A stretch of 64,000 bases of DNA from Roseibium sp. HPY-6. Its GTDB lineage: Bacteria; Pseudomonadota; Alphaproteobacteria; Rhizobiales; Stappiaceae. Shown here one piece after another: positions 26,500 through 41,636 of the stretch. Positions within the stretch are counted from its first letter, which is position 1, and the number at the start of each line of letters is the position of its first letter. Both the position numbers and the translations under genes were made by a program. Under the pieces are notes generated by a model. The model did not search any database. It saw nothing but the letters and a program-made list of their open reading frames with translations, and was not told the origin of the DNA. The DNA is taken from positions 1,426,001-1,490,000 of the forward strand of contig NZ_JBEWCD010000002.1 in the NCBI RefSeq assembly GCF_040530035.1, read 5' to 3'.

Positions 26500-26601
26500 C
26501 ACAAGGTTTTGCGGGCAACCGCGTCATCCCTTTTTGCCGACTGGTTCATCTGAATCTGAAGCGCTATATCTTTGAAAATAAATTGCTTTTAGTTGTATTC
26601 G

Positions 26602-26633
26602 GTGGCGGGGCTTTCCCCGCCACTTATTTTTTC
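26602..26633 (+). terminator. Intrinsic terminator closing the 20-26.5 kb cassette
   Basis: Perfect 9-bp stem GTGGCGGGG/CCCCGCCAC with a CTTT loop, then TTATTTTTT. Confidence 0.9.
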
Positions 26634-27364
26634 AGCAATCACGCTGGTTCCGAATTCAGTTTACTGGTCGAAAATTGTTTGGCCGTTTGCACCAAGCGGA
26701 CCGGCAGCCGGTGTCCGGTTCCAGAGTGCGACTTGCTCAAGACAAAGACAGAAATGTCCACTGCGGTTATGACCGATTCCGAAATCAAACCGGCCTTCGA
26801 TGGACGTACGGCCTCAGCAGGCAAAAATTCGAAGGCCGCGTTCGAGGCGCAAAATCAAAAGCAGGTTCGGGATCTTCATGCCGCTACGCTTCAGGTGGCA
26901 AGTTCCAGCGAAAGTCAGCCGGGTTTCCGTGCCTTGTTTAGGAAGCGCTTTTTTTGTCGGCATCCTGCGCAACCCTCAAGTCAACAAGACCGAACTCTTC
27001 TCCAGAAATCCCGGTAAACCTCGGCGTGGCGGGGGTGGGGCATCAAGGGGGAAATTGGTGTGCTGCCGATCTTCTTGAAAACTGTCAACTGAGAGAAGGA
27101 AGGCTTGTTGGCTCGCCATCATTTCAGTATGAAGCGATCTTCGCTAGGGGTTTTCAGAGATCAGCGGCGGCTCTCAGCCATGAAAGTCAAAACGCCAATG
27201 GTTGAATGAATGAGCCAGCTCGCGTTCGGTTGGCGAGTGTTGGCGCCCAAACGCGACAATAAGATTGCGCTTCAGGTTTTTGAGTGCTTGAAGGCTCTAC
27301 TGGTTCAAACTCGAACAGTTTCAGTGCTAACTCACGAGTCTTTTGGGCAAAAAGTCGTTCCGCA
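26634..27364. other. Long non-coding or poorly coding interval
   Basis: About 730 bases between the cassette terminator and the glycan island. Several short overlapping frames occur, but only the one at 26754 is worth listing. No repeats or insertion-sequence ends are recognised. It may mark an island boundary. Confidence 0.4.
26754..27017 (+). CDS. Possible small hypothetical protein (87 aa)
   Basis: Weak candidate. From ATG 26754 the first 65 codons read as a plausible hydrophilic protein (MSTAVMTDSEIKPAFDG, then Gln/Lys-rich helix), while the C-terminal part is Cys/Arg-rich and looks like out-of-frame sequence. There is no clear ribosome site. It could be a decayed gene fragment. Confidence 0.25.
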   Translation: MSTAVMTDSEIKPAFDGRTASAGKNSKAAFEAQNQKQVRDLHAATLQVASSSESQPGFRALFRKRFFCRHPAQPSSQQDRTLLQKSR

Positions 27365-28054
27365 ATGAAAAAGATAGCCATCCTGCAGTCAAACTATATC
27401 CCCTGGAAAGGGTATTTCGACCTTATCGCTGCGGTCGACGAGTTCATTTTGTTTGACGACATGCAATACACGCGGCGCGATTGGAGAAACCGCAACCAGA
27501 TCAAAGCCCCGCAGGGTTTGCAGTGGTTGACCATTCCGGTGCAGGTAAAGGGCAAGTACCATCAGAAGATTCGGGAAACGAAGATCGATGGAACAGATTG
27601 GCCAGAGGCTCACTGGCGGAACCTGGCTCAATGCTATCGTCGCGCACCACACTTTAAGGAAATATCCGAGTGGCTGGAACCACTATACGCCGAATGCACG
27701 GAAAACCATCTTTCGCCGCTTAACCGGCGGTTCATTGAAACGATCTGCGACTTCCTGGAAATCCGCACGGTGATTTCAAACTCATGGGATTACACACTGG
27801 TTGACGGCAAGACGGAGCGGCTTGCCGGACTATGCGCCGGTGCGGACGGAACCGAGTACATTTCCGGCCCATCTGCGAAAGACTACATCGACGAAAAAAT
27901 CTTCCAGGAGCAGAATATCAAGCTCACCTGGTTCGATTACACAGGCTATCTGGAATATCCGCAGCTTTGGGGAGAGTTTGCTCATAATGTCACAATTCTC
28001 GATCTCCTGTTCAACTGCGGAAAAGATGCGTCCAAGTACATGAGATACGTTTGA
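27365..28054 (+). CDS. WbqC family protein
   Basis: 229-residue cytoplasmic protein of the WbqC-like family, recognised from the N-terminus [18 protein letters not shown] and the [14 protein letters not shown] motif. Members are common in O-antigen and other glycan clusters; a role in sugar or acyl-group processing is suspected but the reaction is not established. ATG at 27365 gives the family start. It is the first gene of the glycan island and converges on the beta-propeller gene. Confidence 0.9.
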
Positions 28055-28168
28055 AGACCCTGTCAGGGCCTTCTTCCCGAATAGTCTTTGCGGTACAGGG
28101 AACTTCGCCGTGAGCGGCAATTGTCAGGCTCGGGTTCATTCCGCTTCACTCGCGCGCTTCGAGCGAAG

Positions 28169-29119
28169 CTAGACATCTCCTTCCAGGATCGCCAGACCAA
28201 ATCCGGTTCGTCCATAACCGTCACCATTATAGAGCATGTAGAAACGGTTATTGTGCGCGAATACATGGGGGTAGCAGACCATGTCGTGATCAAAGTCCCC
28301 CTGAGCGCCTGGAAGAAGGCCGGCCGTGAGATCGTCACGACGTGTCCACTCCATCAAGTCGGGGGAAGTGGCAAACCCGACCCGGTAAGTCTCGTGACTG
28401 GGGCCGGCTCGAAAGCAATACCAAAGTCCGAAGTCTCCCTCCGGCAGTTTTTGGAGGCCGCGAGGGACAAAGGCATATTCGAGTTCGTTCTCAAATTTTA
28501 CGACCGACCGCGGTGGCGACGACCAGTCAAAGCCATCGCGAGAAGATCGCGTCTTGATGTCATAGAAGTGCTTCGGCTTGTCACCGTCTTTTTCATGTTT
28601 CCAGTCAACGAAGGACGTATAAAACATGTGGTATTGGTCGTTGAACCTGTACACAAGCGGTCCGGTTGCAAACAAGGGGTCATATTTGTCCCGGCCCAGC
28701 ACAGGCCCCTCAAATACTTTTTCAAATGTCCTGCCAGCGTCGGTGCTGCGAGCAACACCAATCGCGTTCTCGAATGGGATCTTCACGCCCAGCGTCCACC
28801 CCGCATAGTAGAGCAGCCATTCATTCCCGTTTTTCACAACGGAAAATGGTGTGATCCCGTTGTCGTCAAACGTTCCTGTTCTGCCAAAATTCAGCAACGG
28901 CGAAGTTTCTATGTTCAGAATCTTCTGCGGGTTGTTGAGGTCAATGTCCAGGTAATACGGCTTCGCAATATTCTCAGACGATCTGGCCTCAAAAAACACT
29001 CGGTAAAGGTCGCCATCCAACTGGACCGCGAATGGCATGCGCGCATAACTGATCATCTGCGCGCTGTTGTTGTCGGCACAGAAAATATGTCCCAACTTGC
29101 GCCATTGCTGATCAGACAT
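28169..29119 (-). CDS. Five-bladed beta-propeller, glycoside-hydrolase-like protein
   Basis: About 316 residues with repeated strands typical of the GH43/GH32/GH130-type propeller fold: FFEARSSEN, YYAGWTLG, GVARSTDAGRTFEK, YHMFYTSFVDW, VGFATSPDLMEWTRR, FYMLYNGDGYGRTGFG. Catalytic acids cannot be assigned, so it may be a sugar-binding or phosphorylase-like enzyme. No signal peptide is seen, which suggests a cytoplasmic role in glycan precursor handling. Its ATG (29119) overlaps the end of the upstream glycosyltransferase gene by 8 bases, so the two are coupled. A perfect inverted repeat (28156-28169) lies at its stop. Confidence 0.8.
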   Translation of the reverse strand: MSDQQWRKLGHIFCADNNSAQMISYARMPFAVQLDGDLYRVFFEARSSENIAKPYYLDIDLNNPQKILNIETSPLLNFGRTGTFDDNGITPFSVVKNGNEWLLYYAGWTLGVKIPFENAIGVARSTDAGRTFEKVFEGPVLGRDKYDPLFATGPLVYRFNDQYHMFYTSFVDWKHEKDGDKPKHFYDIKTRSSRDGFDWSSPPRSVVKFENELEYAFVPRGLQKLPEGDFGLWYCFRAGPSHETYRVGFATSPDLMEWTRRDDLTAGLLPGAQGDFDHDMVCYPHVFAHNNRFYMLYNGDGYGRTGFGLAILEGDV

Positions 29120-30053
29120 CTTTTTCATGTTCCAACACTTTCTGAACTATTGTGTACGGGCGATGACGGACCTCATCAAACAACTGCGCGACATAAATTC
29201 CCAAAATTCCAAGCATGAGAATTATTAGGCCGCCGACGAGGTACAAGGATGCGATGACACTGGTCCACCCGGGCAGCGAACTAATTCCGAGAAGGCGCTG
29301 CGTTACCAGGTAGACAGTGAAAGACAAACCAAAAATGAAAATAAAGAAACCGAAAACGGAAATTATGTTCAGCGGTACAGTGCTGAAATTCACAACGGAG
29401 TTTAACGCCTGCACCACTTTTCTCTTAAGTGTATAGGTCGTCGAACCCTTGTTGCCTTTCTGGACGGTTATTGCAACTTGCTTGTAACCCGTAAGAACAA
29501 CCAGGCCACCCAGGAAGGGACTTCTGTCGCGGTGTTCAACCAGAGAGGCTGTGAATTCTCTTGTCATCAGTTTGGCGATCAGAGCGTTGTGCGGGATCGT
29601 TACGCCGGCGATCAAATCCAGGATGTTGTAAAACAACGTTCCGCTAAAGCGCTCAATGAACCAGCCCTTGCGCGCGGGCTGAACCCCATAAACGATATCT
29701 GCTTCGCTGGTGTCCATCTCACGCCAGAAATCCAAGAGGCTTTCGGGTGGCTCTTCCAGATCAACATCAATGACAAAGACCCGCTCACCGCGTGCATACG
29801 ACAAACCGGTAATAATCGCCTTGTGATGACCGAAATTGCGGGAGAGTTGCACGATGCGGATTTTTGACCCATTTGCCTGCACTTGTTTGGCGGCTTCAAG
29901 ACTTCGCCCCGGACAACCGTCATCTACCAAAATGATCTCGTAGTTGGATACGCCGAGATCCGCTATTGAAGCTTCGATTCTGCGCACAAACTCGGGTATA
30001 AAATCCTCAGATTTGTACATTGTCGCGACGATCGACAGATCAACCTCGGGCAT
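29112..30053 (-). CDS. GtrB-like polyprenyl-phosphate glycosyltransferase (GT2)
   Basis: 313-residue GT2 enzyme. The GT-A domain has LSIVATMYKSEDFI, ILVDDGCPG and the metal-binding DVDLEEPP, followed by a conserved region ending in two C-terminal membrane helices (IISVFGFFIFIFGL and LILMLGILGIYVAQ). This is the architecture of GtrB/ArnC/DPM1-like enzymes, which transfer a sugar from a nucleotide to undecaprenyl phosphate. ATG 30053 gives the family N-terminus. A gtrA homologue at 36.1 kb and a candidate GtrC at 39.4 kb suggest a scattered gtrABC set. Confidence 0.9.
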   Translation of the reverse strand: MPEVDLSIVATMYKSEDFIPEFVRRIEASIADLGVSNYEIILVDDGCPGRSLEAAKQVQANGSKIRIVQLSRNFGHHKAIITGLSYARGERVFVIDVDLEEPPESLLDFWREMDTSEADIVYGVQPARKGWFIERFSGTLFYNILDLIAGVTIPHNALIAKLMTREFTASLVEHRDRSPFLGGLVVLTGYKQVAITVQKGNKGSTTYTLKRKVVQALNSVVNFSTVPLNIISVFGFFIFIFGLSFTVYLVTQRLLGISSLPGWTSVIASLYLVGGLIILMLGILGIYVAQLFDEVRHRPYTIVQKVLEHEKDV

Positions 30054-30543
30054 CAAACCAACTCCAGAGTGCAATAGTGAGCGACAATCATCACGATCGA
30101 ATGCGTTCTGACTGACGATGTATGGCCAGCAACAATACCAATATAACGACACAGGTGAGCGAACATCGTTTTTGCAGCTTCACCTTGCGGCTGCTGGTGG
30201 GTACCTGTCCGACAGACGAAATTAGGCAGATCTTTAACCAATGCCACCTTTGCTTTTGTGAAGTAGCCGCAAGCAGTTCCGCACCGTTTCAGATGCACAA
30301 TGCTGTTCAAAGGTATTGCTTGTGACCGGCGGCTATGTCGGTCGGGCACACATACAGTTGCGTTGATCATTTGAGCTACGGTGCAGGATTAAGGATTGCG
30401 TTTGCCAGTATCCGATAACACAGCCAGATCAGGGTTTGTCCTGGCGTGAACCGACTGGCTGGTTTCTCTTTCGATGCCTGATGTGGTTTTATCACTGAGT
30501 TCGGCGGCACCAAGGCTTTGACATCTCGGCGACGTGTAATTTC
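30054..30543. other. 490-base intergenic region
   Basis: Lies between two minus-strand genes. No supported gene, repeat or terminator is seen. It could hold the promoter of the glycosyltransferase and propeller pair. Confidence 0.45.
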
Positions 30544-31482
30544 TTACTTTGAAAGTACATACATGGTTTCCCATCCGCCGACATACGGCCAAATTGCAAA
30601 CTTCTTGCGCTTGTGGAAAAAGAACTCGATGTTTGCAGGGAGTTTCATGCTGGCCGCGATCAAGTAACGGTACCAGTTGGTCCTCCAGTCGATCTCCACA
30701 ATTGATGGCGAAGAATGGACGATACCCAGCTTTTCGCAAAAAACGTCAGGGACACGGTTCCAAAAATCGACGCCGAGATCATGCATATGTGCCGGAAACG
30801 AAAAGTCTATTGCCGGTACAATTCTTTTTAAGGGAACTATGTATGGCGTTCTGACATAAAGGTGCCCTTCCGGCTTCAGCAAGCCAATCAGGTCGTTCAT
30901 GGCAGTACGCAAGTCGATGACATGTTCCAACGACGCCGACGCAATGATGAGATCATACTTGCCGTCAACGGAATCCGTACTTTCATGTTTCGTGATCACG
31001 AAGCGGTCCGACTCAGCAGAAACCAAATCATCCCCATAATCGATCACATCTATCTCTAGCTTCTCAGGTCCTTGCAGAAGGGACGAAAATGCAAGCGCCA
31101 ACGCACCGTCCCCGCCGCCGAAATCCAGCAATCTGAAAGTCTTGGAGTTTGATCCAACATCTGGAAGAATATTGAAAATGTGTTTCGCAAATCTCTGAGG
31201 ATTTGAGAACGTTACGTTCAGCTCTTCTTCGTTGAAATCCGCGTAAAACTTCGAAAATACTTCGTCGTAATACTTCCTCAGATATTCCGGCTTGGCGTGG
31301 TGCGATGTGGAAACAGCCTTGCAAACTGAACATTTTAAAAGAGATATTGTAGGGTTTGACTGAACTTCTCCGACGTTTTTCTTGGGAAGTTCGGACCCGC
31401 ATGCCGGACATTTTTCGAATTTCATCAAGTCGTCGGATTCAAGCTCGACCGATATTTTTTGCAATGATTGTTGAACTTTCAT
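30544..31482 (-). CDS. Class I SAM methyltransferase with N-terminal zinc ribbon
   Basis: About 312 residues. The N-terminus has two Cys pairs (CPACG and CSVC), matching the zinc-binding domain found before many sugar C- or O-methyltransferases. A Rossmann methyltransferase domain follows, with the SAM-binding motif LLDFGGGDGALA, the acidic VIDYG and the post-motif LIIASASLEHV. Position in the glycan island suggests methylation of a sugar or acyl group. The start is uncertain: ATG 31482 is used, and ATG 31425 just before the zinc ribbon is also possible. Confidence 0.85.
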   Translation of the reverse strand: MKVQQSLQKISVELESDDLMKFEKCPACGSELPKKNVGEVQSNPTISLLKCSVCKAVSTSHHAKPEYLRKYYDEVFSKFYADFNEEELNVTFSNPQRFAKHIFNILPDVGSNSKTFRLLDFGGGDGALALAFSSLLQGPEKLEIDVIDYGDDLVSAESDRFVITKHESTDSVDGKYDLIIASASLEHVIDLRTAMNDLIGLLKPEGHLYVRTPYIVPLKRIVPAIDFSFPAHMHDLGVDFWNRVPDVFCEKLGIVHSSPSIVEIDWRTNWYRYLIAASMKLPANIEFFFHKRKKFAIWPYVGGWETMYVLSK

Positions 31483-31836
31483 TGTATCTGGACTCGCTTG
31501 CTTCGGCTGAAAATTTTTAGAGTTTCTACAAAAGGAACAAAGAGAAAAAAAGACCAAATGCGGGCCTGACACGCGATTATCAGCTCTGATAATTTGGTCT
31601 GGCTTTCTTTTCGAATTCTGTTTGATTGTGCCTCAGATTCGTGTAGGTCGACCTTCAGGGTAACCACCGGCCTCAGGTGAGAATGAAGCGTTTCTCGGCT
31701 CCGGAAAACTGTTTCGAGTGCGGAAAAGGTGGAGAACGAGGTGCTCATTGACTTTAGCACGCCAAAAGTGTCTTTCATCGAAAAACCAGCACAAGCGCCA
31801 GCACCGTTGGTATGTTTATATCTGTAGGCCAAAACC
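31483..31836. other. Divergent promoter region of the glycan island
   Basis: 354 AT-rich bases between the minus-strand methyltransferase and the plus-strand carrier-protein operon. It includes the palindrome at 31576-31593. No gene is supported here. Confidence 0.5.
31576..31593. promoter_or_regulatory. 18-base palindrome, candidate operator
   Basis: ATTATCAG-CT-CTGATAAT, a perfect inverted repeat in the region shared by two divergent glycan operons. A regulator binding site is inferred from position only. Confidence 0.4.
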
Positions 31837-32511
31837 ATGGAAAAAAAAGTTGTTCTAGTCGGAAACGCCGTTACCGCAGAAGTTCTCTATTCTTATCTTA
31901 AGATTGACGCGCGTTATCAGGTCTCTGGTCTTGTTGTCGACGACCAGTATGTCGACACCGGAACGAATTCCGACGTGAGAACAATTGCCTTGTCACATTT
32001 GGCCGAAGAGTACCCGCGTGATGAATATACCCTCATCATGGCCATGGGCTACAACGATCTCAATCAAACGCGCGAGAGGTTGTTCAACAAGCTGGTCGAT
32101 TTGGGTTATGAATTTGAAACCTACGTGCATCCAACCGCTTTTGTCGCTCCAGACGCAACCGTTGGCCAAGGCTCGGTGGTCCTTCCCCACGCCGTCATCG
32201 AACCACATTCCTCAGTCGGTTCAAACACTATGGTATGGAGCAACGTGACACTCGCCCACCACAGCACAGTTGGAGCAAATTGCTGGGTCGCTGCAGGAAC
32301 GGTGGTGTCTGGAAAGGCCGTCATTGAGCGCAACTCCTTCCTGGGCGTCAGTTCAATCATCGTGAATGAGGTTACTGTGGGTGAATTCAACATCATCGGT
32401 GCCGGGGCCTTGGTGTCACGCGACACAAAACCTCATTCAGTCCACCTGTCTCGATCAGCCGAACCCTTCCGTTTTTCGTCGGAAGAATATGTCAAGCATT
32501 TCGGAATTTAA
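31837..32511 (+). CDS. PglD/NeuD-like sugar O/N-acyltransferase (left-handed beta-helix)
   Basis: 224 residues. A small N-terminal Rossmann-like domain (KKVVLVGNAVTAEVL) is followed by hexapeptide repeats of a left-handed beta-helix (VAPDATVGQGSVV, HSTVGANCWVAAGTVVSG), as in PglD, PerB and NeuD, which acylate the amino group of nucleotide-linked 4-amino sugars. Here a carrier protein gene begins one base after its stop, so the acyl donor may be carrier-bound rather than acetyl-CoA. That is inference from gene order. It is the first gene of a tightly packed operon. Confidence 0.88.
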   Translation: MEKKVVLVGNAVTAEVLYSYLKIDARYQVSGLVVDDQYVDTGTNSDVRTIALSHLAEEYPRDEYTLIMAMGYNDLNQTRERLFNKLVDLGYEFETYVHPTAFVAPDATVGQGSVVLPHAVIEPHSSVGSNTMVWSNVTLAHHSTVGANCWVAAGTVVSGKAVIERNSFLGVSSIIVNEVTVGEFNIIGAGALVSRDTKPHSVHLSRSAEPFRFSSEEYVKHFGI

Positions 32512-32512
32512 G

Positions 32513-32752
32513 ATGAACGCCAAACTTACAGAACTACTTGCCGAGGTTTTCGGACTGCGTCCAACTGAAATCCACCCAGAACTTCAAAAAACCGATGTCG
32601 GCTCGTGGGACTCACTGAAGCAGATGGATCTCGTCATGTCCCTGGAGCGGGCCTACGATATCGTGCTGGATCTCCCCGACATTTTGCGCATGACTTCGGT
32701 TGCGGAGATCGTTGCCGTTCTTGAAGACAAAGGAGTGTCTTTTGAAGACTGA
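32513..32752 (+). CDS. Stand-alone acyl/peptidyl carrier protein
   Basis: 79-residue carrier protein. The phosphopantetheine-bearing Ser is in GSWDSLKQMDLV (about residue 37), followed by the typical helix LERAYDIVLD. It is not the fatty-acid AcpP, whose site reads DSLD; it resembles carriers used in specialised aminoacyl or acyl transfer. It begins one base after the acyltransferase and overlaps the SDR gene by 11 bases, so all three are coupled. Confidence 0.9.
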   Translation: MNAKLTELLAEVFGLRPTEIHPELQKTDVGSWDSLKQMDLVMSLERAYDIVLDLPDILRMTSVAEIVAVLEDKGVSFED

Positions 32753-33482
32753 GGGAACGGTTGCACTCGTCACCGGCGGAGCGCGTGGCCTTGGACTGGA
32801 AATCGCACAGCACTTGTCTGGAGCGGGCGCAACAGTGGTTGTCGCAGACAGAAATGCCGAAGCGCTTGCGGCACTTTCTCCAGCGCTTGAAGGTTGCGTG
32901 ATGGACGTCACAGATCCCGCTCAGGTGAAGTCGCAGGTTGCCAACATCATCGATAAGCACAAGCGTATCGATATACTGGTCAACAATGCCGGTGTTATTT
33001 CAAGCGAACCTCTCGTCAATCTCACCAACCCTGACGGCATCATGCATGACTATGGCCGTTTCCGGGACTCTTTGACCGTTAATCTCGATTCTGTCTTTAT
33101 CGTCACCTCAGCGGTGGTGGAACACATGGTCAAACTTCGTATCAGGGGAGCGATTGTAAATATCAGCTCAATCAGCGCCTGCGGCAACGAAGGCCAGACG
33201 GCCTATTCCGCGGCTAAGGCCGGCGTAAACGCAATGACGGTGACTTGGTCGAAAGAGCTCGGGCGCTGGGGTATCCGTTCAAACGCTGTTGCTCCGGGGT
33301 TCATAGGGACCGATTCCACACACTCTGCCGTTACTGAAACAGCGATAAAACATATCCGGGATAACACGCCGCTGCGCAGGCTTGGTGACGCCAGCGAGGT
33401 TGCCGCTGCAGTTAGAACGCTGATAGAAAACGATTTTCTGAACGGGGTCATTCTCGACGTGAATGGCGGGCTCAGGATCTGA
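32742..33482 (+). CDS. SDR family oxidoreductase (FabG-like)
   Basis: 246-residue short-chain dehydrogenase/reductase. It has the cofactor motif TGGARGLG, the NNAG motif, catalytic Ser in ISSIS and the YSAAK Tyr-Lys pair, and a C-terminal LDVNGG. The start is TTG at 32742, chosen because AAGGAGTG lies 6 bases upstream inside the carrier-protein gene; no ATG or GTG fits. It probably reduces a carrier-bound acyl group or a sugar. Its TGA overlaps the next ATG by one base. Confidence 0.88.
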   Translation: MKTEGTVALVTGGARGLGLEIAQHLSGAGATVVVADRNAEALAALSPALEGCVMDVTDPAQVKSQVANIIDKHKRIDILVNNAGVISSEPLVNLTNPDGIMHDYGRFRDSLTVNLDSVFIVTSAVVEHMVKLRIRGAIVNISSISACGNEGQTAYSAAKAGVNAMTVTWSKELGRWGIRSNAVAPGFIGTDSTHSAVTETAIKHIRDNTPLRRLGDASEVAAAVRTLIENDFLNGVILDVNGGLRI

Positions 33483-34357
33483 TGGCGACCGGTTTTGTTT
33501 TTGTCGGCAACAGACGTTTCGTGCTTGAGCGTATGATTGCCGAGGAGCTGAATGTCACCTCAGTGTTTGTCGTCGCGGGGACGCACCTGGAACGAGACTT
33601 GCAGCGCGGCATGATCTCAGGTGTGTCGGACTACTCGACTGTCAGTAGCAAACGGGAGCTCCTTCAACACCTGGAACAGAGCTGCTACGACGTACTTGTT
33701 TCCAATGGCTGCCCCTACATCCTTCCCGTGAGCGAGTTGCCCGCCGCGCGCTATGTAAATATCCACCCGTCCTGCCTCCCTGACTTGCGGGGCGTCGACC
33801 CGGTGATCGGCTCCGTACTGCACAAACGGGATGGCGGTGCCACGTGTCACGTTATGGATGCCGGCATTGATACCGGAGACATCATATCCAGCGTTCGGAT
33901 TCCTTTTTCGCCTGATCTGGACGTTACGACACTCTATCAGTTGAGTTTCATTGCTGAGCAGGACGCATTTTCAAAGGCGCTTGCTCGAAACTTTGAACCT
34001 CAGCGGGCACAGCCCGATGAGCCTGAGGCAATTTACTACTCCCGCAGTGCGGAGGATCAGAGAATTACCTTTCAAGAGGACAATGATTTGATCCTTCAAA
34101 AGGTCAAGGCGTTCAACAACCGTTCTCAAGGTTGCGGTTTCAGTGTCCAGGGAACTAAGTTTCGCGTCTTTTCAGCACAGCGCATGCTAAATCCCTTCAT
34201 CGGCAAGGCGCTGGAGGGGTTCCCCGAATGCGTGGTTGGATTGAGCTACGAGAACAGCATTGTCTTTCGCAAGGACGGCGAAATCATGAGGTTTTTGGAG
34301 ATCCAATCGGACGGGGGCGAGATCATCGCCGTTGGTTCCAGCTTGTTGCAACCCTAG
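33482..34357 (+). CDS. Formyltransferase, sugar N-formyltransferase type
   Basis: 291 residues with the 10-formyl-tetrahydrofolate transferase core. The catalytic triad is readable: Asn and His in VNIHPSCLP (about 93 and 95) and Asp in DAGIDTGDI (about 130), with HPSxLPDLRG characteristic. The C-terminal half differs from Met-tRNA formyltransferase and fits sugar N-formyltransferases (VioF, QdtF type), which formylate dTDP-amino sugars. In this operon it could instead formylate a carrier-bound aminoacyl group. The WecE-type aminotransferase at 36.8 kb would provide the amino sugar. Confidence 0.85.
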   Translation: MATGFVFVGNRRFVLERMIAEELNVTSVFVVAGTHLERDLQRGMISGVSDYSTVSSKRELLQHLEQSCYDVLVSNGCPYILPVSELPAARYVNIHPSCLPDLRGVDPVIGSVLHKRDGGATCHVMDAGIDTGDIISSVRIPFSPDLDVTTLYQLSFIAEQDAFSKALARNFEPQRAQPDEPEAIYYSRSAEDQRITFQEDNDLILQKVKAFNNRSQGCGFSVQGTKFRVFSAQRMLNPFIGKALEGFPECVVGLSYENSIVFRKDGEIMRFLEIQSDGGEIIAVGSSLLQP

Positions 34358-34561
34358 TTGGCTTCGACTAAACGTGACGAACAAGATCACTTGATAAGGT
34401 TCATTCAAAGTCTTTAGCGAGACGTGCGATTTATCGGATACGGGACGCACGCCCGTTAATTGCTGGAACCACCCTCCTACAAGGGCGACACCAAACAGCG
34501 AATTGCTCCCGATTTCCTGTCCGTTAGCCTTTCAGGAAACAGAGACTTCCGACAAATTGAT

Positions 34562-36118
34562 ATGACCGCCATTCCGCACCACTATAATCTGGGCAATCTC
34601 CTCGCCGAAACACTGACCCGGCACTCCACACGACCGGCACTGCGCTACGCTGAGAGCGATCACTCTTTTGGTGATCTGGGAACCTGGGCCGCCTCGCTTG
34701 CAACTCTCCTTCTGGGCAAGGGGCTCAGCCGTGGCGACGTGATCGCCATTGGGCACGACAAACACCCTCTTTCATATGCCCTTATGATTGCGTCGCTTCG
34801 TCTTGGTATCGCTTATGTCAATTTCGACGTCTGTTCACCAATCGCACGAACGAAGCGAATCCTCGAAGTAAGCGCCCCTTCTTTGCTGTTCTACGATGAT
34901 GCGACCTATCGGGAAGAGATGACCGAGCTGGCAGGCGCGCAGGGCTGCGAGTTGATCTTGCTTGAGACGACAAGCCTGCCAGAGACCAGCGACGAAGATC
35001 TTAAGCGCCAGCAGGAATGCTGCCGGTTGGTGGATGGTTCGACCATCGCCTACATAATGTTCACTTCGGGTTCAACGGGAATACCAAAGGGCGTCGCGGT
35101 TACGCATGAGAACCTTTTGCACTTTATCGACTGGGGCCGGGAGTGTTTCGACGTCACGGAAGAAGACAATTTTTCAAATCTCAGTCCGATGTATTTCGAC
35201 AACTCGGTTTTCGATTTCTATGTAGGCCTCTTCAACGGCGCATCGCTCAGTCCGGTCCATCGGGGCCTGCTCACCAAGCCGTATGACTTGGTCGCCTATG
35301 TGAGCGCGCGCAACTGTACGATCTGGTTCTCGGTCCCTTCGGCGCTGATGTATCTCATGGCGGTGAAGGCGATTGGTCCTGGCGCACTTGAAAACCTGCG
35401 TGCCATCATTTTCGGCGGCGAGGGATACCCAAAGGTGGAACTCAAGAAGCTTTATGACCGTTTCGAAAAGCAGGCGAGTCTCGTGAATGTCTATGGACCG
35501 ACGGAATGCACATGCATCTGTAGCGCTCACACGCTGAGTCCGGTCGATTTTGAGGACATGGAAGGGCTACCGACTCTTGGTCGCCTGAACAAGAATTTCG
35601 ACTTTGTCATTCTGGACGATGCCGGTGATGAAGCCGCTGAAGGCGAACTCTGTCTGATCGGGCCGAATGTGGCAGCCGGGTACTTCAATGATCTTGAGCG
35701 CACTGGCGCCGCCTTCCATACGCTCACCGATCCGACGCGCTATATGAAACGGATGTACCGCACAGGTGACCTGGTGAGGGAGGATGATGGACAGCTGCAT
35801 TTCATTGGCCGCAAGGACAATCAAATCAAGCACATGGGTTACCGGATCGAACTTGAAGAGATAGAAAACGCGCTTGTGAGGTTGACCCAGGTTGACCAGG
35901 CTGCGGTCGTCTACCTCCGCAAGCAGGCGGCATTCGGCAAGCTGATCGCGTATGTCGCGTGTAAAAATAACGTAGAAGACGGAGTGCTGCTGAAAGAGCT
36001 TGGTCAGCTGGTGCCTGACTACATGGTCCCGCATCGTCTTCACATATTGCCGGAACTCCCGAAAAACGCCAACGGCAAGGTCGATCGGCAAGCCCTGCGC
36101 GCCCTCTCGGAGCAGTAA
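34562..36118 (+). CDS. Stand-alone amino-acid adenylation enzyme (DltA/NRPS A-domain-like)
   Basis: About 518 residues of the ANL superfamily. Core motifs are FTSGSTGIPKGV (P-loop), YFDNSVFDFY (A4), VYGPTE (A5), YRTGDLV (A7) and NANGKVDRQAL (A10, catalytic Lys). The Asp of the FDNS motif matches the residue that binds the substrate amino group in DltA and NRPS A-domains, pointing to an amino acid substrate rather than a fatty acid. It likely loads the carrier protein at 32.5 kb. A 204-base gap separates it from the formyltransferase gene. The ATG 34562 is preferred to a TTG at 34460. Confidence 0.87.
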   Translation: MTAIPHHYNLGNLLAETLTRHSTRPALRYAESDHSFGDLGTWAASLATLLLGKGLSRGDVIAIGHDKHPLSYALMIASLRLGIAYVNFDVCSPIARTKRILEVSAPSLLFYDDATYREEMTELAGAQGCELILLETTSLPETSDEDLKRQQECCRLVDGSTIAYIMFTSGSTGIPKGVAVTHENLLHFIDWGRECFDVTEEDNFSNLSPMYFDNSVFDFYVGLFNGASLSPVHRGLLTKPYDLVAYVSARNCTIWFSVPSALMYLMAVKAIGPGALENLRAIIFGGEGYPKVELKKLYDRFEKQASLVNVYGPTECTCICSAHTLSPVDFEDMEGLPTLGRLNKNFDFVILDDAGDEAAEGELCLIGPNVAAGYFNDLERTGAAFHTLTDPTRYMKRMYRTGDLVREDDGQLHFIGRKDNQIKHMGYRIELEEIENALVRLTQVDQAAVVYLRKQAAFGKLIAYVACKNNVEDGVLLKELGQLVPDYMVPHRLHILPELPKNANGKVDRQALRALSEQ

Positions 36119-36119
36119 A

Positions 36120-36524
36120 GTGACGCTGGACACGATCATCACAACGACAAGGCAAATGGTGCGGTACGGCGTTGTAGGCGCGCTTACCAATCTGTTGGGT
36201 TACCTGATTTATCTTCTCGTGACCTGGCTTTGGCTCGAGCCGAAGGTAGCTGTTGCGATAATGTATCCAATTGCGGCATTGACCGCTTATTTCGGTCACG
36301 CGAAATATACATTCGAATACAACGGGTACCAGACCCGCGGGTTGTTTCGTTATTGCGTTTCGCACGCCATCGGCTACGCCACGAGTTTGGGAATGCTGTT
36401 TGTATTTTTTGACTTGCTGGGCTACCCGCACCAGCTGGTACAGGCTGCATCGATTTTCGTCGTGGCTGGCCTTCTGTTTCTTCTCTTCCGGTTTTACGTT
36501 TTTCGGGAAGTGTCAAAGAGCTAA
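36120..36524 (+). CDS. gtrA: GtrA family membrane protein (candidate flippase)
   Basis: 134 residues with four membrane helices, the GtrA family. GtrA proteins are thought to flip undecaprenyl-phosphate-linked sugars for side-chain addition outside the cytoplasm. GTG at 36120 is chosen because it follows the ligase stop by one base and has GGAG upstream; the first residues (TLDTIITTTRQMVRYGVVGAL) fit the family. The partner GtrB is at 29.1 kb. Confidence 0.88.
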   Translation: MTLDTIITTTRQMVRYGVVGALTNLLGYLIYLLVTWLWLEPKVAVAIMYPIAALTAYFGHAKYTFEYNGYQTRGLFRYCVSHAIGYATSLGMLFVFFDLLGYPHQLVQAASIFVVAGLLFLLFRFYVFREVSKS

Positions 36525-36789
36525 GCGTTTGATCCTGTTTGGTTCATTTCGTCGGACCAGCCGCTGTCGCTGACAACTCAGAACCAATAATAACCGAACG
36601 CCTTGGACCGACGTCTCTTCAACGTGGGAAAACATATTGCTGCTCTTTCAAAGCAGTGAGATCCCAATATATTGAAAAGGCCATTGTTACTATCTTGAGT
36701 GGCGGTCTGCGCAGGTCGGTAATCGGCTCTTTCGAGCCACTATCAGCAAACGGTTCCTGATCTGATCAAGAAACAAGGACGGTGAGCTA

Positions 36790-37932
36790 ATGAAATCAAA
36801 CAGTCACATTCCCTTTAACTGGCCGCACATGACCGGCAAGGAGCTGTATTATATCGCCGACGCGCACTTTAAGGGCAGGCTTGCCGGCGACGGTCCGTTT
36901 ACAAAGCTCTGCCACGCGTGGATCGAAGAAAACAGCGGATGCAGCAAAGCACTTCTGACGCATTCATGTACTGCTGCACTGGAAATGGCCGCGTTGTTGT
37001 TGGACATCGAGCCTGGTGACGAAATTATTATGCCGTCCTATACATTTGTGTCGACGGCGAATGCGTTCGTGCTTCGAGGTGGTGTGCCGGTCTTCGTTGA
37101 TATACGCGAAGATACCCTCAATCTGGATGAAAGCCTGCTCGAAGCTGCGATCACACCCCGAACCAGAGCGATTGTGCCGGTGCACTATGCGGGTGTCGGG
37201 TGCGAAATGGACACCATTTTGAGCATCGCGCGCAAGCACGGTTTGCACGTTGTGGAAGATGCTGCGCAGGGCGTGATGGCAAGCTACAAGGACCGCATGC
37301 TTGGAAGCATCGGTGATCTGGGAACCTACAGTTTCCATGAGACGAAAAACGTAATCTCCGGCGAAGGGGGGGCTCTCCTAGTCAACGACGAAACTTTGTC
37401 AGTGAGAGCTGAGATTATCCGTGAAAAAGGAACCGACAGAAGCCGTTTTTTCAGGGGCGAGATAGACAAATATTCTTGGCAGGAAGTTGGATCATCCTTT
37501 TTGCCCGGCGAATTGATTGCAGCCTTTCTGTGGGCGCAGCTTGAAGAAGCACAGAAGATCACTGAGCAAAGACTGTCGAACTGGCGCTATTACCACGATT
37601 TGATGGAGCCCCTTGAAGCGAGCGGTATCCTGCGTCGCCCGATCATCCCCGCGGAGTGCCGGCACAACGCTCACATGTACTATGTCTTGTTTTCGCCGGA
37701 CATCGACAGACAAAGTGTGCTCGAGAGTTTCAAGAAAAACGGCATTGATTCCGTTTTTCATTACGTTCCCCTGCATTCAGCCCCGGCGGGCATGCGCTAT
37801 GGTCGAGCGCATGGCAATCTCGAAATTACGAATGAGTATTCCGAAAGGCTTGTCCGACTGCCGTTCTGGACGACAATAACCGTTGAACAACAGGACGAAG
37901 TTGCCCGGACACTGAAAAACGCAATCGGTTGA
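36790..37932 (+). CDS. wecE: dTDP-4-amino-4,6-dideoxygalactose transaminase (WecE/RffA)
   Basis: 380-residue PLP aminotransferase of the DegT/DnrJ/EryC1 family. It matches WecE closely: IPFNWPHMTGKELYYI, SCTAALEMAALLLDI, PSYTFVSTANAFVLRGG, VVEDAAQGVMASYKDR and the PLP Lys in FHETKNVISGEGGALL (about 186). It aminates dTDP-4-keto-6-deoxyglucose to the 4-amino-4,6-dideoxy sugar (Fuc4N type). C4 stereochemistry cannot be proved from sequence. It has its own 265-base upstream region, which contains a small hairpin (36725-36738). Confidence 0.9.
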   Translation: MKSNSHIPFNWPHMTGKELYYIADAHFKGRLAGDGPFTKLCHAWIEENSGCSKALLTHSCTAALEMAALLLDIEPGDEIIMPSYTFVSTANAFVLRGGVPVFVDIREDTLNLDESLLEAAITPRTRAIVPVHYAGVGCEMDTILSIARKHGLHVVEDAAQGVMASYKDRMLGSIGDLGTYSFHETKNVISGEGGALLVNDETLSVRAEIIREKGTDRSRFFRGEIDKYSWQEVGSSFLPGELIAAFLWAQLEEAQKITEQRLSNWRYYHDLMEPLEASGILRRPIIPAECRHNAHMYYVLFSPDIDRQSVLESFKKNGIDSVFHYVPLHSAPAGMRYGRAHGNLEITNEYSERLVRLPFWTTITVEQQDEVARTLKNAIG

Positions 37933-38080
37933 TTTTCTGCTCCCAGAGCGCAGGCCAAGCGTTGAGTTTCCTGGCACGACCACGGTCGCCGGCGTCTTTG
38001 ACTTGGCGGGTAATGACAGTGCGTAGCGGCGCTGCAGGTCATTGTTTCAAAAGATGGACGATACGGTCGAACGCGGCGCA

Positions 38081-39004
38081 CTAGTCGGACGGGTTCAGCA
38101 CTGTCTTTGATTGGGGGCGAACACAAATCTCGTGCAACAAATTGAAGTAGTCATTCGATTTGTTGTTTTCGCAAAGTGCGACCAGGTCTGATCTGTCAAT
38201 CCATCCGTTGCGCCATGCCATTTCTTCCGGGCTGGCGATCATCAAGCCGTTCCGGCGTTGCATGGTTCGGACGTATTGGCTCGCCTCGAACAAGCCTTCG
38301 GGCGTTCCCCCGTCAAGCCAGGCGACACCACGCCCCAGGTCAACTGCTTTGAGGCTTCCGTCGGCCAGATAAAGCTTGTTGAGGTCGGTGATTTCCAATT
38401 CGTTCCGCTTGGACGGCTTGAGGGATTTCGCGAATTCCACGGCACGACCGTCGTAACAATAAAAGCCTGGAACCGCTAGATTGGATCGCGGGTGATCCGG
38501 TTTTTCTTCCAAACTCAGGACTTCGTGGTCGCCACTGAGTTCAACAACGCCAAAGGCTTCAGGGTTCTTGACGGGGTAGCCAAGAATGCTGGCGCCAACG
38601 TTTTCTTCCAGAACGCGCTGAAGCACTGAAGCTAGGTTCGATCCGTGGATCAGGTTGTCACCCAGAACCAAGACCGAGTCCCGGTTGCCGATCTGCTGGG
38701 CGCACAGGAGAAAAACCTCGGCGATGCCGTGAGGCTCATCCTGATGGACATAATTCAGCGTCATGCCCCATTGACTGCCGTCGCCAAGCAGACCTCTGAA
38801 AGCCGCTTCATCCTCCGGCCGGCAAATGAAGACAACTTCACGAACCTTGATGAGCATCAGCAAAGAAAGAGAATAGTAAATCAGCGGTTTATCGTAGACA
38901 TGGAGAAGATGTTTATTGACGGATCTTGTTGTCGGAAAAAGTCGGCTGCCGGTACCCCCAGCAAGCAAAAGACCGATTGGATCTTTCCCAGGTTCATTTG
39001 TCAT
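38081..39004 (-). CDS. rmlA: Glucose-1-phosphate thymidylyltransferase RmlA
   Basis: About 307 residues of nucleotidyltransferase fold. LLLAGGTGSRLFPTT is the nucleotide loop; VLGDNLIHG, EKP and a product region ending WLDGGTPEGLFEAS follow RmlA. It makes dTDP-glucose, the entry to dTDP-deoxysugars. The usual partner dTDP-glucose 4,6-dehydratase is not in the window. The sequence diverges from typical RmlA at the start (RSVNKHLLHVYDKP), though all core motifs remain. It is on the strand opposite wecE and converges with it. Confidence 0.88.
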   Translation of the reverse strand: MTNEPGKDPIGLLLAGGTGSRLFPTTRSVNKHLLHVYDKPLIYYSLSLLMLIKVREVVFICRPEDEAAFRGLLGDGSQWGMTLNYVHQDEPHGIAEVFLLCAQQIGNRDSVLVLGDNLIHGSNLASVLQRVLEENVGASILGYPVKNPEAFGVVELSGDHEVLSLEEKPDHPRSNLAVPGFYCYDGRAVEFAKSLKPSKRNELEITDLNKLYLADGSLKAVDLGRGVAWLDGGTPEGLFEASQYVRTMQRRNGLMIASPEEMAWRNGWIDRSDLVALCENNKSNDYFNLLHEICVRPQSKTVLNPSD

Positions 39005-39447
39005 TCTTATTCTTGCCCCGCAATCAAAGCGCAGTGTCTTCGAGCGTTTCATCAAGCCCGAGGTGGCCAGCAGTGTATGTCTTGCGTTATCTCAGCGTTG
39101 TCAATTGCATATCTGAAATATTGCCCCGTCCCGTTTTGCTTGAGGGTAATCCTGTTTTGGGAAAGCAGCGACGACCGGGGGGCGTTAAGCCGGCAGACCG
39201 CGCAAAACGGTTGTTGATGGCGAAGGAGCGTCGCAGGAAGAGCCCGTCCCTGCTTCGGGGGCGGCTGCCTCATGGCGAAGGCTTGGGATGCAGTTTCAAG
39301 CCGGCACACGGATTGCGCGCTGAAATCATGATGGACCGTATTTGCGACTTGTACTAACACTCACGCTAGCGCGGTGTTTCATGGTTTCCCGCACGCGTGT
39401 CGCCTATTCTTGAAGCGCCTCACTAACGGTGGAGATTTTTTCTGAAA
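39005..39447. other. 443-base divergent intergenic region
   Basis: Between rmlA (minus) and the membrane protein gene (plus). It must hold both promoters. A short plus-strand stretch from about 39218 reads as an Arg/Ser-rich peptide with no family and is not called. No repeats are clear. Confidence 0.45.
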
Positions 39448-41235
39448 ATGAAGCGTTCAGTGTTTAACTGGTCTTTTGTTGTTTGTGTCATCTGGTTTCC
39501 AGTTTTCTATATTATTTTCTCACTTTTTTTTACTGTAGTGGTGAGTTCTATTTATTTTTTTGACAGCTTTAATTTGCTCAACAATATTTTTGGCAGCGTT
39601 TTATTTTTATTTGTTTCAAGCGCTCTTTGCTGCCTGCTTTTCTATCGCGTTGAAAATCTGCCTTATCACGCGCCCGGAACCAGGGCATATGGCGCAACGG
39701 TCATCGCTGTAGGGCTGATTTTCTTTGTATTTGTTGGCAGCATCCGGCTCATATACGGAGTGGGAACACCATTTGCCCCAATGTTGATGCATGCGGGATT
39801 GCTCCACCATGACATCGTATTCAGGCTCAGTATTTCGAGTATCTTATCGGAAAATGCTCTCATCACGGCAGGCGTGAATGGATACGTTAATACAATCAGT
39901 CCGTCTTTGTTTGAGGTGTCTCTGGGCGGCTTGTCGGCTTTTTTAGGTTCGAATCCGGTTGACGTTTTTTATGCATATTTCTCCGGGTTCGTTCCGGCTA
40001 TCTGGTTATTGTTGCTCGTCGCAATTCCGATCATCCTCGGAGCGCCGGTGTTATTGGCGGCATGGGCCCCGGTCGCGATTGCAACGATCAGTTTGTTCTC
40101 CCTGACCGTAGAAGTTCCGTACTGGGGAATGAAGCCTTTCATAAATGCCCCATACGCTTTCGCGCTTATGTTTCTGCTGCTGCAGGTATTCGTGCTTGTG
40201 CGGCTGGCGCTTGCGTCAAAGGCTTACAAAGAAACGGACATGCCATTCGGAACGGCAGCAAAATTTTGCGCGCTGATGGTAATTGTTGCGACACTGGCAA
40301 CGGCTTCAAAAATTCAGGTTGGCTTCGTCACTTCGGCGGGGGCTTGTATTGCAATACTGATCCTGCCGATGAAATTGGTACATCGCCTGGCCCTGCTCAC
40401 AGTTTGTTCGGTCTTGTTAGCGTTGGCGGGGTTCTATGCAATTTATTTTTCACTGGAATTTGTTGGTGGGCTGGAAATCATAGTCAAGTGGAAGCTGCTC
40501 GCACTACATGCCGGTGTTGCGCTTTTGCTCGTGTTGTTCATGGTCAGCGATCGAGATCCGTCAGTGAAGTGGTTGTCGCTCCCGCTCACCGTGATGCTGC
40601 TTGCAGCTTTGGTCACACCCACTCTCTATGCCAGTGGGAACCAGGAGACCTTCTTTCATAATCAGGCACTTTGGATTTCCGTGCCGGTTATAGTCGGTAT
40701 CGCTTCGAACAGAGGGCTCCTGCAATCCCGGATGACTTTAAAGATTGCGCTGGCGGCGGTTGTCTTGATCAACGCCCTGACGATATTTGAGTTGGCTGAC
40801 AACAACGCCCTGAAAACCCGCATGGATAGATCGCTCCAACGCATCGCTTCCAGCTTGCAAGCCAGCGACCCAACTCTCACCCAAACGTTAAACGCAGTTC
40901 AACAGGCAGCAAATCAAATTGACGGTGATTTAAATGTAGGTCTGTTCATTCCGCACGAGAACAAAGAATTCTGGGCTCTGGGGTATTCTTGTATCTTTCC
41001 GAATTTTTATCTTCAGGCGAATACCGGCATGGCGCTTCTGGTTGGAAACCGCCCGATAACGGAACGGTGCCCAAACCCAATCGCCGGATATCAGAGCATC
41101 CCGCAGAACCTTACCCCGCCCTATACGCCCGACGCGCTTTGCCCCATCGCACGAAGCCGCTCCGTTGATGCGGTGATTTTGGTGAACGATATAGATCGTC
41201 TGCCACTAGACGTCATTGATTGCAGAGGAAGCTAG
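39448..41235 (+). CDS. Multi-spanning membrane protein, candidate GtrC/GT-C glycosyltransferase
   Basis: Not recognised as a named family. 595 residues with about 12-14 predicted membrane helices up to residue 430, then a roughly 150-residue soluble C-terminal domain (VGLFIPHENKEFW, YSCIFPNFYLQ, PCPIARSR-like Cys-containing stretch). A large extracytoplasmic loop after helix 3 (HAGLLHHDIVFRL) is reminiscent of GT-C enzymes. Together with GtrA and GtrB-like neighbours it is a natural candidate for the serotype-specific transferase GtrC. The 5' end is markedly AT-rich relative to flanking housekeeping genes, which fits acquired DNA. Confidence 0.6.
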   Translation: MKRSVFNWSFVVCVIWFPVFYIIFSLFFTVVVSSIYFFDSFNLLNNIFGSVLFLFVSSALCCLLFYRVENLPYHAPGTRAYGATVIAVGLIFFVFVGSIRLIYGVGTPFAPMLMHAGLLHHDIVFRLSISSILSENALITAGVNGYVNTISPSLFEVSLGGLSAFLGSNPVDVFYAYFSGFVPAIWLLLLVAIPIILGAPVLLAAWAPVAIATISLFSLTVEVPYWGMKPFINAPYAFALMFLLLQVFVLVRLALASKAYKETDMPFGTAAKFCALMVIVATLATASKIQVGFVTSAGACIAILILPMKLVHRLALLTVCSVLLALAGFYAIYFSLEFVGGLEIIVKWKLLALHAGVALLLVLFMVSDRDPSVKWLSLPLTVMLLAALVTPTLYASGNQETFFHNQALWISVPVIVGIASNRGLLQSRMTLKIALAAVVLINALTIFELADNNALKTRMDRSLQRIASSLQASDPTLTQTLNAVQQAANQIDGDLNVGLFIPHENKEFWALGYSCIFPNFYLQANTGMALLVGNRPITERCPNPIAGYQSIPQNLTPPYTPDALCPIARSRSVDAVILVNDIDRLPLDVIDCRGS

Positions 41236-41406
41236 CAGCGGAACTGAAACTCGAAACGTCGATCTGTCGCGCCTTAGAGCCGAAGTCGTGAGCTGACGAT
41301 CGCCGGTTCGACAAACTCATCATGAAGTAATGATGTTGTTTGCTTCCGGTCTTGCCCGCAGACGCCATCGAATTCATTGAACTGGCGGCGAAATTCCTGG
41401 CCACCA

Positions 41407-41480
41407 TGGAGCGGGTGAGGGGAATCGAACCCCCGTCTTAAGCTTGGGAAGCTTCTGCTCTACCATTGAGCTACACCCGC
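41407..41480 (-). tRNA. tRNA-Gly(CCC)
   Basis: On the minus strand the sequence folds as a cloverleaf: acceptor GCGGGTG/CACCCGC, D arm GCTC-AATGGTA-GAGC, anticodon loop TTCCCAA with CCC, T arm ending TTCGATT, and an encoded CCA end. It is 74 bases with CCA. The outermost anticodon-stem pair is a G-A mismatch. It marks the end of the glycan island and could be an integration target. Confidence 0.95.
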
Positions 41481-41636
41481 TTTGCAACCCAAGTACTGAG
41501 CCGACTTGGTGAAGCTGTCAAGCGGACAAGAGTGCTTTTCCGTCTTACTTGATCTTGCGCTGCAGCGCAGAAATCGCCATGTTCGCGCCGGCGCAAGAGC
41601 GCGGTGTTTTGAACGGACAAACTCCAGGTCAGGTAA

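Follow-up and report, generated by a model that had tools for sequence, protein, structure and literature searches.

A putative carrier-protein-based module for aminoacyl decoration of surface sugars in Roseibium sp. HPY-6

A gene cluster of Roseibium sp. HPY-6, contained in the 64,000-nucleotide stretch of DNA analysed here (the window), appears from its sequence to encode a module in which a small amino acid is activated on a carrier protein, attached to a surface amino sugar and capped with a formyl group, the cap in relatives being probably acetyl. A dissociated NRPS-like loading module serving sugar decoration would be the best explanation of the whole, cap and export included, and we hold it with slightly better than even confidence.

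The lipopolysaccharide of Francisella victoria reportedly contains unusual amino acids. N-acylated aminoacyl sugars, the kind of product to be expected, are already known chemically: surface polysaccharides have been described whose sugars bear N-acylated amino acids, e.g. N-acetyl-alanyl, N-acetylglycyl and N-formyl-alanyl (PMC3210612, PMC10059132), and N-acyl-aminoacyl groups are known on such sugars (PMC3210612). No description of the gene set was found in the open-access literature searched, subscription papers being mostly outside the search. If the proposed reading is true, it would account for the making of a known class of decorations on surface sugars; it then supplies the enzyme set, provides a pocket signature for finding more such modules, makes a formyl or acetyl cap predictable from sequence, and gives the WbqC family and the GH130-like propeller a first functional context.

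Layout of the locus

The six genes named in the earlier note are all open on the forward strand and matched to their families by profile, in the order PglD-like acyltransferase, carrier, short-chain dehydrogenase/reductase (SDR), formyltransferase (FMT), adenylation enzyme (A) and GtrA; a WecE-type aminotransferase follows (Table 1). Their description as mostly overlapping or separated by one base applies to four of the five junctions (PglD-carrier, gap of 1; carrier-SDR, overlap of 11; SDR-FMT, overlap of 1; A-GtrA, gap of 1) but not to the FMT-A junction, the loose one, with a gap of 204 nucleotides, or 102 if the TTG at 34460 is the start. The claimed lack of a ketosynthase was borne out among the 12 ORFs of positions 27371-41235 run against Pfam and NCBIfam.

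Table 1. Features of the locus, with window coordinates and supporting evidence
Feature	Coordinates	Strand	Evidence
WbqC-family protein	27371..28054	+	PF08889 275.7 bits
GH130-like propeller protein, constant module partner	28169..29128	-	
GT2, polyprenyl-phosphate sugar synthase type	29112..30053	-	PF00535 83.1 bits; PgfS 147.7 and ArnC 133.7 bits, both below cut-off
SAM methyltransferase-like protein, divergent operon, module membership uncertain	30544..31572	-	PF13489 49.6 bits
PglD/NeuD-type hexapeptide N-acyltransferase (putative)	31837..32511	+	PF00132 62.7 bits, above cut-off; TIGR03570 152.5, just below cut-off 160.8
Carrier protein, 79 aa, phosphopantetheine serine	32513..32752	+	PF00550 36.4 bits, above cut-off; WDSL serine motif
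FabG/HADH2-like SDR	32742..33482	+	PF00106 158.8 bits, above cut-off; TTG start preceded by AGGAG
Formyltransferase (FMT)	33482..34357	+	PF00551 52.1 bits, above cut-off
Stand-alone amino-acid adenylation enzyme (A), DltA/NRPS A-domain type	34562..36118	+	PF00501 219.4 bits and PF13193, both above cut-off; TIGR01733 313.6, just below cut-off 317.4
GtrA-type membrane protein, putative prenyl-phosphate sugar flippase	36120..36524	+	PF04138 62 bits, above cut-off; GTG start at 36120
WecE-type aminotransferase, dTDP-4-amino-4,6-dideoxyhexose	36790..37932	+	TIGR02379 631.3 bits (cut-off 434.85); PRK11706 604.9 (375)
RmlA glucose-1-phosphate thymidylyltransferase	38081..39055	-	TIGR01207 363.3 bits (cut-off 360.65)
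595-aa polytopic membrane protein, possible periplasmic glycosyltransferase partner of GtrA/GT2 (inferred role)	39448..41235	+	13 hydrophobic segments (simple hydropathy script)

By profile scores, the aminotransferase, the PglD-type acyltransferase, the carrier and the FabG-like SDR are all present together, and RmlB is encoded elsewhere in the genome (482.4 bits, cut-off 365.1). The GtrA-family protein co-occurs with a GT2 whose PgfS and ArnC similarity lies below cut-off, and an export role is predicted for the pair. The 595-aa membrane protein gave no Pfam match, and for the WbqC-family protein no relative of known structure was found up to E = 1.

Distribution of the module and exchange of its acyl cap

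The gene-order survey proposed in the earlier note was run on the FMT family, for which 80 loci were found and the best 25 (L039-L063, E <= 1e-49) mapped; the remainder, L064-L118 (E of 2e-13 or higher), was assumed to consist of other formyltransferases and left out of the mapping. L010 and L011 are the same records as L039 and L040, and L049/L051 and L056/L058 are near-copies. The adenylation enzyme is present in 17 of the 25 loci, which carry labels of nine phyla and all of which (17/17) also have SDR, carrier, PglD and GH130-like propeller. Across the 22 A-bearing sugar-type loci, the carrier gene immediately precedes that of the SDR in every case, PglD, SDR and propeller are constant (22/22), an aminotransferase homologue occurs in 19 (not found in L042, L045 and L148) and a WbqC homologue likewise in 19. 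Because this gene content recurs in other phyla, the gene set is not a chance assembly.

Within the genus, at least 3 of the 45 genomes searched carry the arrangement, and other genome searches returned at least 1 to 5 matches per 48-398 genomes; these counts include the anchors and, with few candidates scored per genome, are lower bounds. The arrangement called unusual in the earlier note is thus rare per genome, yet the loci that share it bear the labels of nine phyla. Among plasmid records, neither the FMT (E <= 1e-40) nor the adenylation enzyme (E <= 1e-80) had a match.

Eight of the 25 FMT loci are without A. Three of them (L052, L055, L057) are cut off by a contig end beside the FMT. L043 (10 kb upstream, 3.5 kb downstream) has no A either, and since L054, L060, L061 and L062 have real flanks but no A, association with the adenylation enzyme is not exclusive for the FMT family.

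The Asn93-His95-Asp130 triad of the PF00551 (Formyl_trans_N) family is conserved in the window FMT and in 17/17 loci (18/18 rows). Against solved formyltransferases, the enzyme scored 53.9 bits with the LgrA F domain, 53.5 with VioF and about 50 with others, values that do not separate the aminoacyl-carrier type from the sugar type; NF005755 gave 40.3 bits (cut-off 238).

A GNAT acetyltransferase was found in 4/5 A-bearing loci without FMT versus 2/17 with FMT (Fisher p = 0.009, or 0.005 after collapsing near-copies; n is small, and the 5 FMT-less and 17 FMT loci came from different queries). The GNATs of the FMT-less loci belong to two Pfam families, PF12746 (L147, L148) and PF13302 (L149, L158). 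In L147, L148 and L158 the GNAT gene stands directly behind the SDR, in the slot of the FMT; in L149 it is on the other strand, elsewhere in the cluster. The near-copies L056 and L058 have both enzymes. L159 has A, SDR and carrier, but neither FMT nor GNAT was found there, and at the aligned positions its PglD lacks the His and its SDR the Asn. This distribution fits the amino acid being capped by either enzyme, FMT or GNAT, more than it fits an FMT working on the sugar amine.

The main alternative makes the sugar 4-amine itself the target of the FMT, in the manner of VioF or ArnA; the FMT would then serve another sugar or step, while the A, carrier, SDR and PglD set would make a separate acyl-amide. 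In its favour, sugar N-formyltransferases score the same as LgrA in the FMT comparison, the A-less FMT loci L054, L061 and L062 keep the aminotransferase and WbqC, and the ArnC-like GT2 recalls the Ara4N pathway, in which the sugar is formylated. Against this, all 17 FMT loci with A have the FMT in one cluster with A and PglD, and in the window it lies inside the operon; pairwise FMT and A distances correlate at 0.92 (raw distances, uncorrected for species relatedness), and the five A-less Bacillota FMTs form a group of their own (92/98). In addition to the GNAT exchange, the window encodes a single aminotransferase, hence one amine, which PglD would take, and FMT or GNAT would therefore need another. 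Direct sugar formylation is, on these grounds, rather unlikely.

Adenylation enzyme, carrier and associated enzymes

The adenylation enzyme combines an AMP-binding fold, a substrate-amine Asp and a Lys517-type lysine, with D and K present in 23/23 pocket rows. The Asp, whose retention the earlier note had claimed, is D213 (numbered from ATG) and is invariant in 15 aligned relatives. Amino-acid adenylation models scored 313.6 and 300.6 bits versus 185.4 for acyl-CoA ligases, and, among solved relatives with a single domain, a prolyl-carrier ligase (214.9 bits) and DltA (202.1 bits) scored highest. By these sequence features, the enzyme is classed as an amino-acid-type adenylation enzyme; family scores and pocket speak against a fatty-acid ligase, a reading that was rejected.

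The window pocket reads DNFFIFVCIK. The pattern DNFF[IFMV]FVCIK describes it together with all 22 A-bearing sugar-type loci, and DNFF[IFLV]F[VA]CIK describes 120/120 listed homologues, the best 120 of 5438. A hydrophobic pocket this tight would be suited to Gly or Ala, in which case the SDR would have no obvious job. Phage-collection records gave 25 matches to the enzyme, all below 60% identity (30-36% among the 10 listed), which are probably host DNA since the single record checked is DltA.

The carrier has the W[DE]S-motif Ser in the window and in 21 loci, and also in L149, whose carrier (PF00550 28.1 bits) had no BLAST match in the 22-locus comparison and was added by reading the locus. The SDR keeps Asp36, Ser, Tyr and Lys in the window and 22/22 loci, and Asn in 21/22; its nearest solved relatives are 3-oxoacyl-ACP reductases. 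In the PglD-like protein, His141 is found in the window and 21/22 loci, L159 having Asp. An overlap in L047, considered as a gene fusion that would prove contact, is composed of two frames and is no fusion.

The same type of adenylation enzyme is also encoded away from the sugar module in two loci; besides a carrier, its company is an uncharacterised membrane protein in L123 and an AAC(3)-like protein in L122.

These two loci favour a reading in which A and carrier feed an amino acid to a non-sugar target (lipid, peptide or polymer, as in Dlt), the co-location with sugar genes being incidental, which we consider improbable given the constant company of PglD, SDR and propeller and the frequent aminotransferase homologue in the sugar-type loci. 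Less probable still is a route in which carrier and SDR draw on primary metabolism to form a beta-hydroxyacyl group, with A as an acyl-acid ligase and a hydroxyacid as substituent: the viosamine island does share a PglD-like enzyme, a carrier and a FabG-like SDR (vioB, acp, vioR; PMC3927599), but the scanned ORFs hold no ketosynthase, the amine-binding Asp and the model scores of A point to an amino acid, and FMT or GNAT would be left without an amine substrate.

Proposed pathway and comparison with known systems

In the aminoacyl-decoration pathway that we favour, RmlA, with RmlB from elsewhere in the genome, would form dTDP-4-keto-6-deoxyglucose, and the WecE-type aminotransferase would convert it to dTDP-4-amino-4,6-dideoxyhexose. 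The adenylation enzyme very probably adenylates a small alpha-amino acid (similar in size to Gly, Ala, Ser or Thr) and charges the carrier with it. The SDR, probably an NAD(H)-linked beta-hydroxyacyl dehydrogenase/reductase, may act on the carrier-bound acyl group, a step that would favour Ser or Thr and to which we give even weight. The PglD-like enzyme is likely to move the carrier-bound aminoacyl group onto the 4-amine of the sugar. We lean, somewhat less firmly, towards FMT formylating the free alpha-amine, either before or after the aminoacyl group leaves the carrier, with GNAT acetylating it equivalently in relatives. The GT2 would then place the sugar on polyprenyl phosphate, GtrA would flip it, and the 595-aa membrane protein would attach it to the surface glycan.

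The route outlined in the earlier note, from amino acid through A and carrier to a 4-amino sugar, with N-formylation and GtrA export, thus draws support from sequence and comparison (the amino-acid-type A, its invariant DltA-like pocket, the carrier-SDR pair and the FMT/GNAT exchange), while the A-less FMT loci and the undiscriminating FMT scores count against it. In a more specific version, which we regard as unlikely, Ser or Thr would be loaded and the NAD(H)-type SDR would oxidise it on the carrier, before its transfer to the 4-amino sugar and stabilisation by N-formylation or N-acetylation; the product would be an alpha-acylamido-beta-oxoacyl sugar not described before, made by a phylum-crossing module with exchangeable caps in which propeller and WbqC would be new pathway enzymes.

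Oxidation of a Ser-carrier to an aminomalonyl-carrier, of the zwittermicin/colibactin type, employs a free A enzyme, a carrier and a hydroxyacyl dehydrogenase acting on the carrier-bound amino acid; the dehydrogenase family, acceptor and context of that route differ from those found here. The stand-alone A enzyme and free carrier resemble DltA/DltC D-alanylation, and the pocket shares the F299/F301 positions. However, a verified DltA (TIGR01734 821.7 bits) has the pocket DLMVFFTVAK and CGE, in contrast to DNFFIFVCIK and GGE here; the window enzyme stays below the DltA equivalog threshold (TIGR01734 284.0 bits, cut-off 559.85), and acceptor and partners also differ.

The Pseudomonas syringae viosamine island comprises vioA, vioB, vioS, vioR, acp, vioM and vioT (PMC3927599). 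The locus resembles this island in its 4-amino-6-deoxysugar aminotransferase, PglD/VioB-type N-acyltransferase, dedicated carrier and FabG-like SDR. The island, as described there, has an annotated ketosynthase III (VioS) and a 3-hydroxybutanoyl group (PMC3927599), whereas the locus has an amino-acid A enzyme and a formyltransferase, with no ketosynthase among the 12 scanned ORFs. Formyltransferase, amino-acid adenylation and carrier occur together in the initiation module (F-A-PCP) of LgrA, the linear gramicidin synthetase, which tops the solved-structure searches of both A and FMT by listed score, its A score summing two domains and its FMT score being tied with VioF. LgrA is a single polypeptide that feeds a peptide chain, whereas here the parts are separate and lie amid nucleotide-sugar genes.

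Gene block and its genomic setting

The six-gene block described in the earlier note was confirmed, with all genes on one strand from the PglD-like hexapeptide N-acyltransferase to GtrA. The junctions are mostly tight, four of the five being overlaps or 1-base gaps; the exception, between the formyltransferase (FMT) and the adenylation enzyme (A), measures 204 bases. A WecE-type aminotransferase downstream of GtrA, RmlA downstream of the block and RmlB, encoded elsewhere in the 7.03 Mb host genome, all scored above the cut-offs of their models. Divergent and upstream of the block lie genes for a GT2, a GH130-like propeller and a methyltransferase, and past these a WbqC-family gene, for whose product a search for a solved structural relative found none.

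Coordinates of the features in the window
Feature	Position	Strand	Remark
WbqC-family protein	27371-28054	+	PF08889
PglD-like protein	31837-32511	+	
Carrier	32513-32752	+	
Short-chain dehydrogenase (SDR)	32742-33482	+	TTG start
FMT	33482-34357	+	
A	34562-36118	+	
GtrA	36120-36524	+	
tRNA-Gly (ccc)	41407-41480		

The GC content of the 26-42 kb stretch is 0.47-0.54, below most of the window, and the tRNA gene lies near its end. The low-GC island spans about 26500-41500; a close relative (L039) shares the right-side flanks, and another locus (L040) carries the module at another place. The FMT is 90% identical to its nearest named match, from Roseibium, and was found at an identity of at least 69% in 3/45 genomes of the genus and 0/42 other genomes of the family. 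The block is thus a patchy island.

Recurrence of the module and exchange of the putative cap gene

The gene-order survey called for earlier covered the best 25 of the 80 FMT-family loci found. A, SDR, carrier, PglD and FMT recur together in 17 of the 25, and eight lack A. SDR, carrier, PglD and propeller are present in all 17 A-bearing loci and WbqC in 15; a WbqC homologue occurs in 19 of the 22 A-bearing sugar-type loci and in 4/8 A-less FMT loci. The 17 loci carry labels of nine phyla, single ones of which may be wrong because most loci are metagenome-assembled; Labrenzia, Thiocapsa, Francisella noatunensis and a strain of Lachnospiraceae are among the isolates that carry the module. With host kinship not factored out, the pairwise protein distances correlated at 0.92 for FMT versus A and 0.91 for A versus SDR, as would be expected if the module proteins travel together. 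Three A-less loci (L052, L055, L057) end at a contig edge and five (L043, L054, L060, L061, L062) have flanks. In the FMT tree, five A-less Bacillota FMTs group together (support 92/98), L043 and L055 branch with relatives that carry A, and L061 sits on a long branch.

The A-profile search, in samples that overlap one another and with anchors counted, found A in 3/398 genomes of the phylum sample, 5/397 of the order sample, and 1/48, 3/248, 1/198 and 1/199 of the others. Leaving out the window and anchors gave seven loci, two of which are systems other than the sugar module. In one (L122:9183-11826), an A with a module-type pocket has an AAC(3)-family protein on one side and, on the other, a carrier-like protein scoring just below the Pfam cut-off. 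In the other (L123:9983-13337), A, likewise with a module-type pocket (DNFFFFCCIK), precedes a membrane-like protein of 492 aa, which Pfam did not match, and then a carrier, an order resembling Dlt.

The other five loci are of the sugar type, and no FMT was found in them. L147 reads PglD, carrier, SDR, a GNAT acetyltransferase at the FMT position, A and a GtrA-like protein. Directly behind SDR, L148 carries a GNAT of the same Pfam family and L158 one of a different family, while the GNAT of L149 lies elsewhere in the cluster on the opposite strand. In L159 no GNAT was found, its unassigned ORFs giving a methyltransferase or no match. As a control, 29 unassigned and two GNAT-like ORFs from across the module in the 17 loci with FMT were scanned, and GNAT domains were confined to the latter two, in the near-copies L056 and L058. 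GNAT thus occurs in 4/5 loci without FMT versus 2/17 with it (Fisher one-sided p = 0.009, small sample; 4/5 versus 1/15, p = 0.005, with near-copies collapsed), the two sets coming from different queries. This exchange fits FMT as a putative amino-acid capping enzyme. The earlier proposal that an amino acid would be loaded on the carrier, perhaps formylated or reduced, and passed to a 4-amino sugar is partly supported, and the exchange adds strength to it.

Active sites and proposed route

Across the window and the 22 A-bearing sugar-type loci, the A pocket reads DNFF[IFMV]FVCIK in 23/23 rows; of the best 120 of 5438 homologues, 119 read DNFF[IFLV]FVCIK and one DNFFIFACIK. SDR keeps Asp36, Ser, Tyr and Lys in 23/23 rows and Asn in 22/23, PglD its His in 22/23, and FMT its Asn-His-Asp triad in 18/18. 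The carrier Ser is present in 22/22 aligned rows and, by reading the sequence, in L149; the carrier lies directly upstream of SDR in 22/22 loci. The sole exception for both the SDR Asn and the PglD His, changed in the alignment, is L159 (L159:4600-13700), whose PglD aligns poorly and which, having neither FMT nor GNAT, is possibly an uncapped or altered version.

A is of amino-acid type, and the enzymes nearest to it are free-standing ligases that load proline or D-alanine on a carrier. A verified DltA has a related but less tight pocket, and CGE where A has GGE; the substrate of A is read as a small amino acid. Since SDR falls in the FabG/HADH2 group, has an Asp of the type that usually goes with NAD(H) and invariably follows the carrier, we infer that it works on the carrier-bound acyl group, which would favour Ser or Thr; the hydrophobic A pocket would suit Gly or Ala too, in tension with this preference. 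PglD would move the aminoacyl group onto the one 4-amine that the aminotransferase provides, and FMT, or GNAT in relatives, would act on the amine that remains free, on the amino acid. GT2, GtrA and a 595-aa membrane protein suggest that the sugar is passed via prenyl phosphate to a periplasmic acceptor.

Comparison with known systems

Three known systems resemble the module. In Dlt, D-alanine is loaded on a free carrier; in LgrA, formyl, A and carrier domains are joined, for peptides. The genes described for the viosamine island include vioS, vioR, acp and vioB, and a ketosynthase is used there (PMC3927599). Recorded amino sugars bear N-acetyl-alanyl, N-acetylglycyl and 3-hydroxybutyryl-alanyl groups (PMC3210612), and an N-formyl-L-alanyl group is reported for Vibrio anguillarum O2 (PMC10059132); these N-acylated aminoacyl sugars are of the kind that the module would be expected to make.
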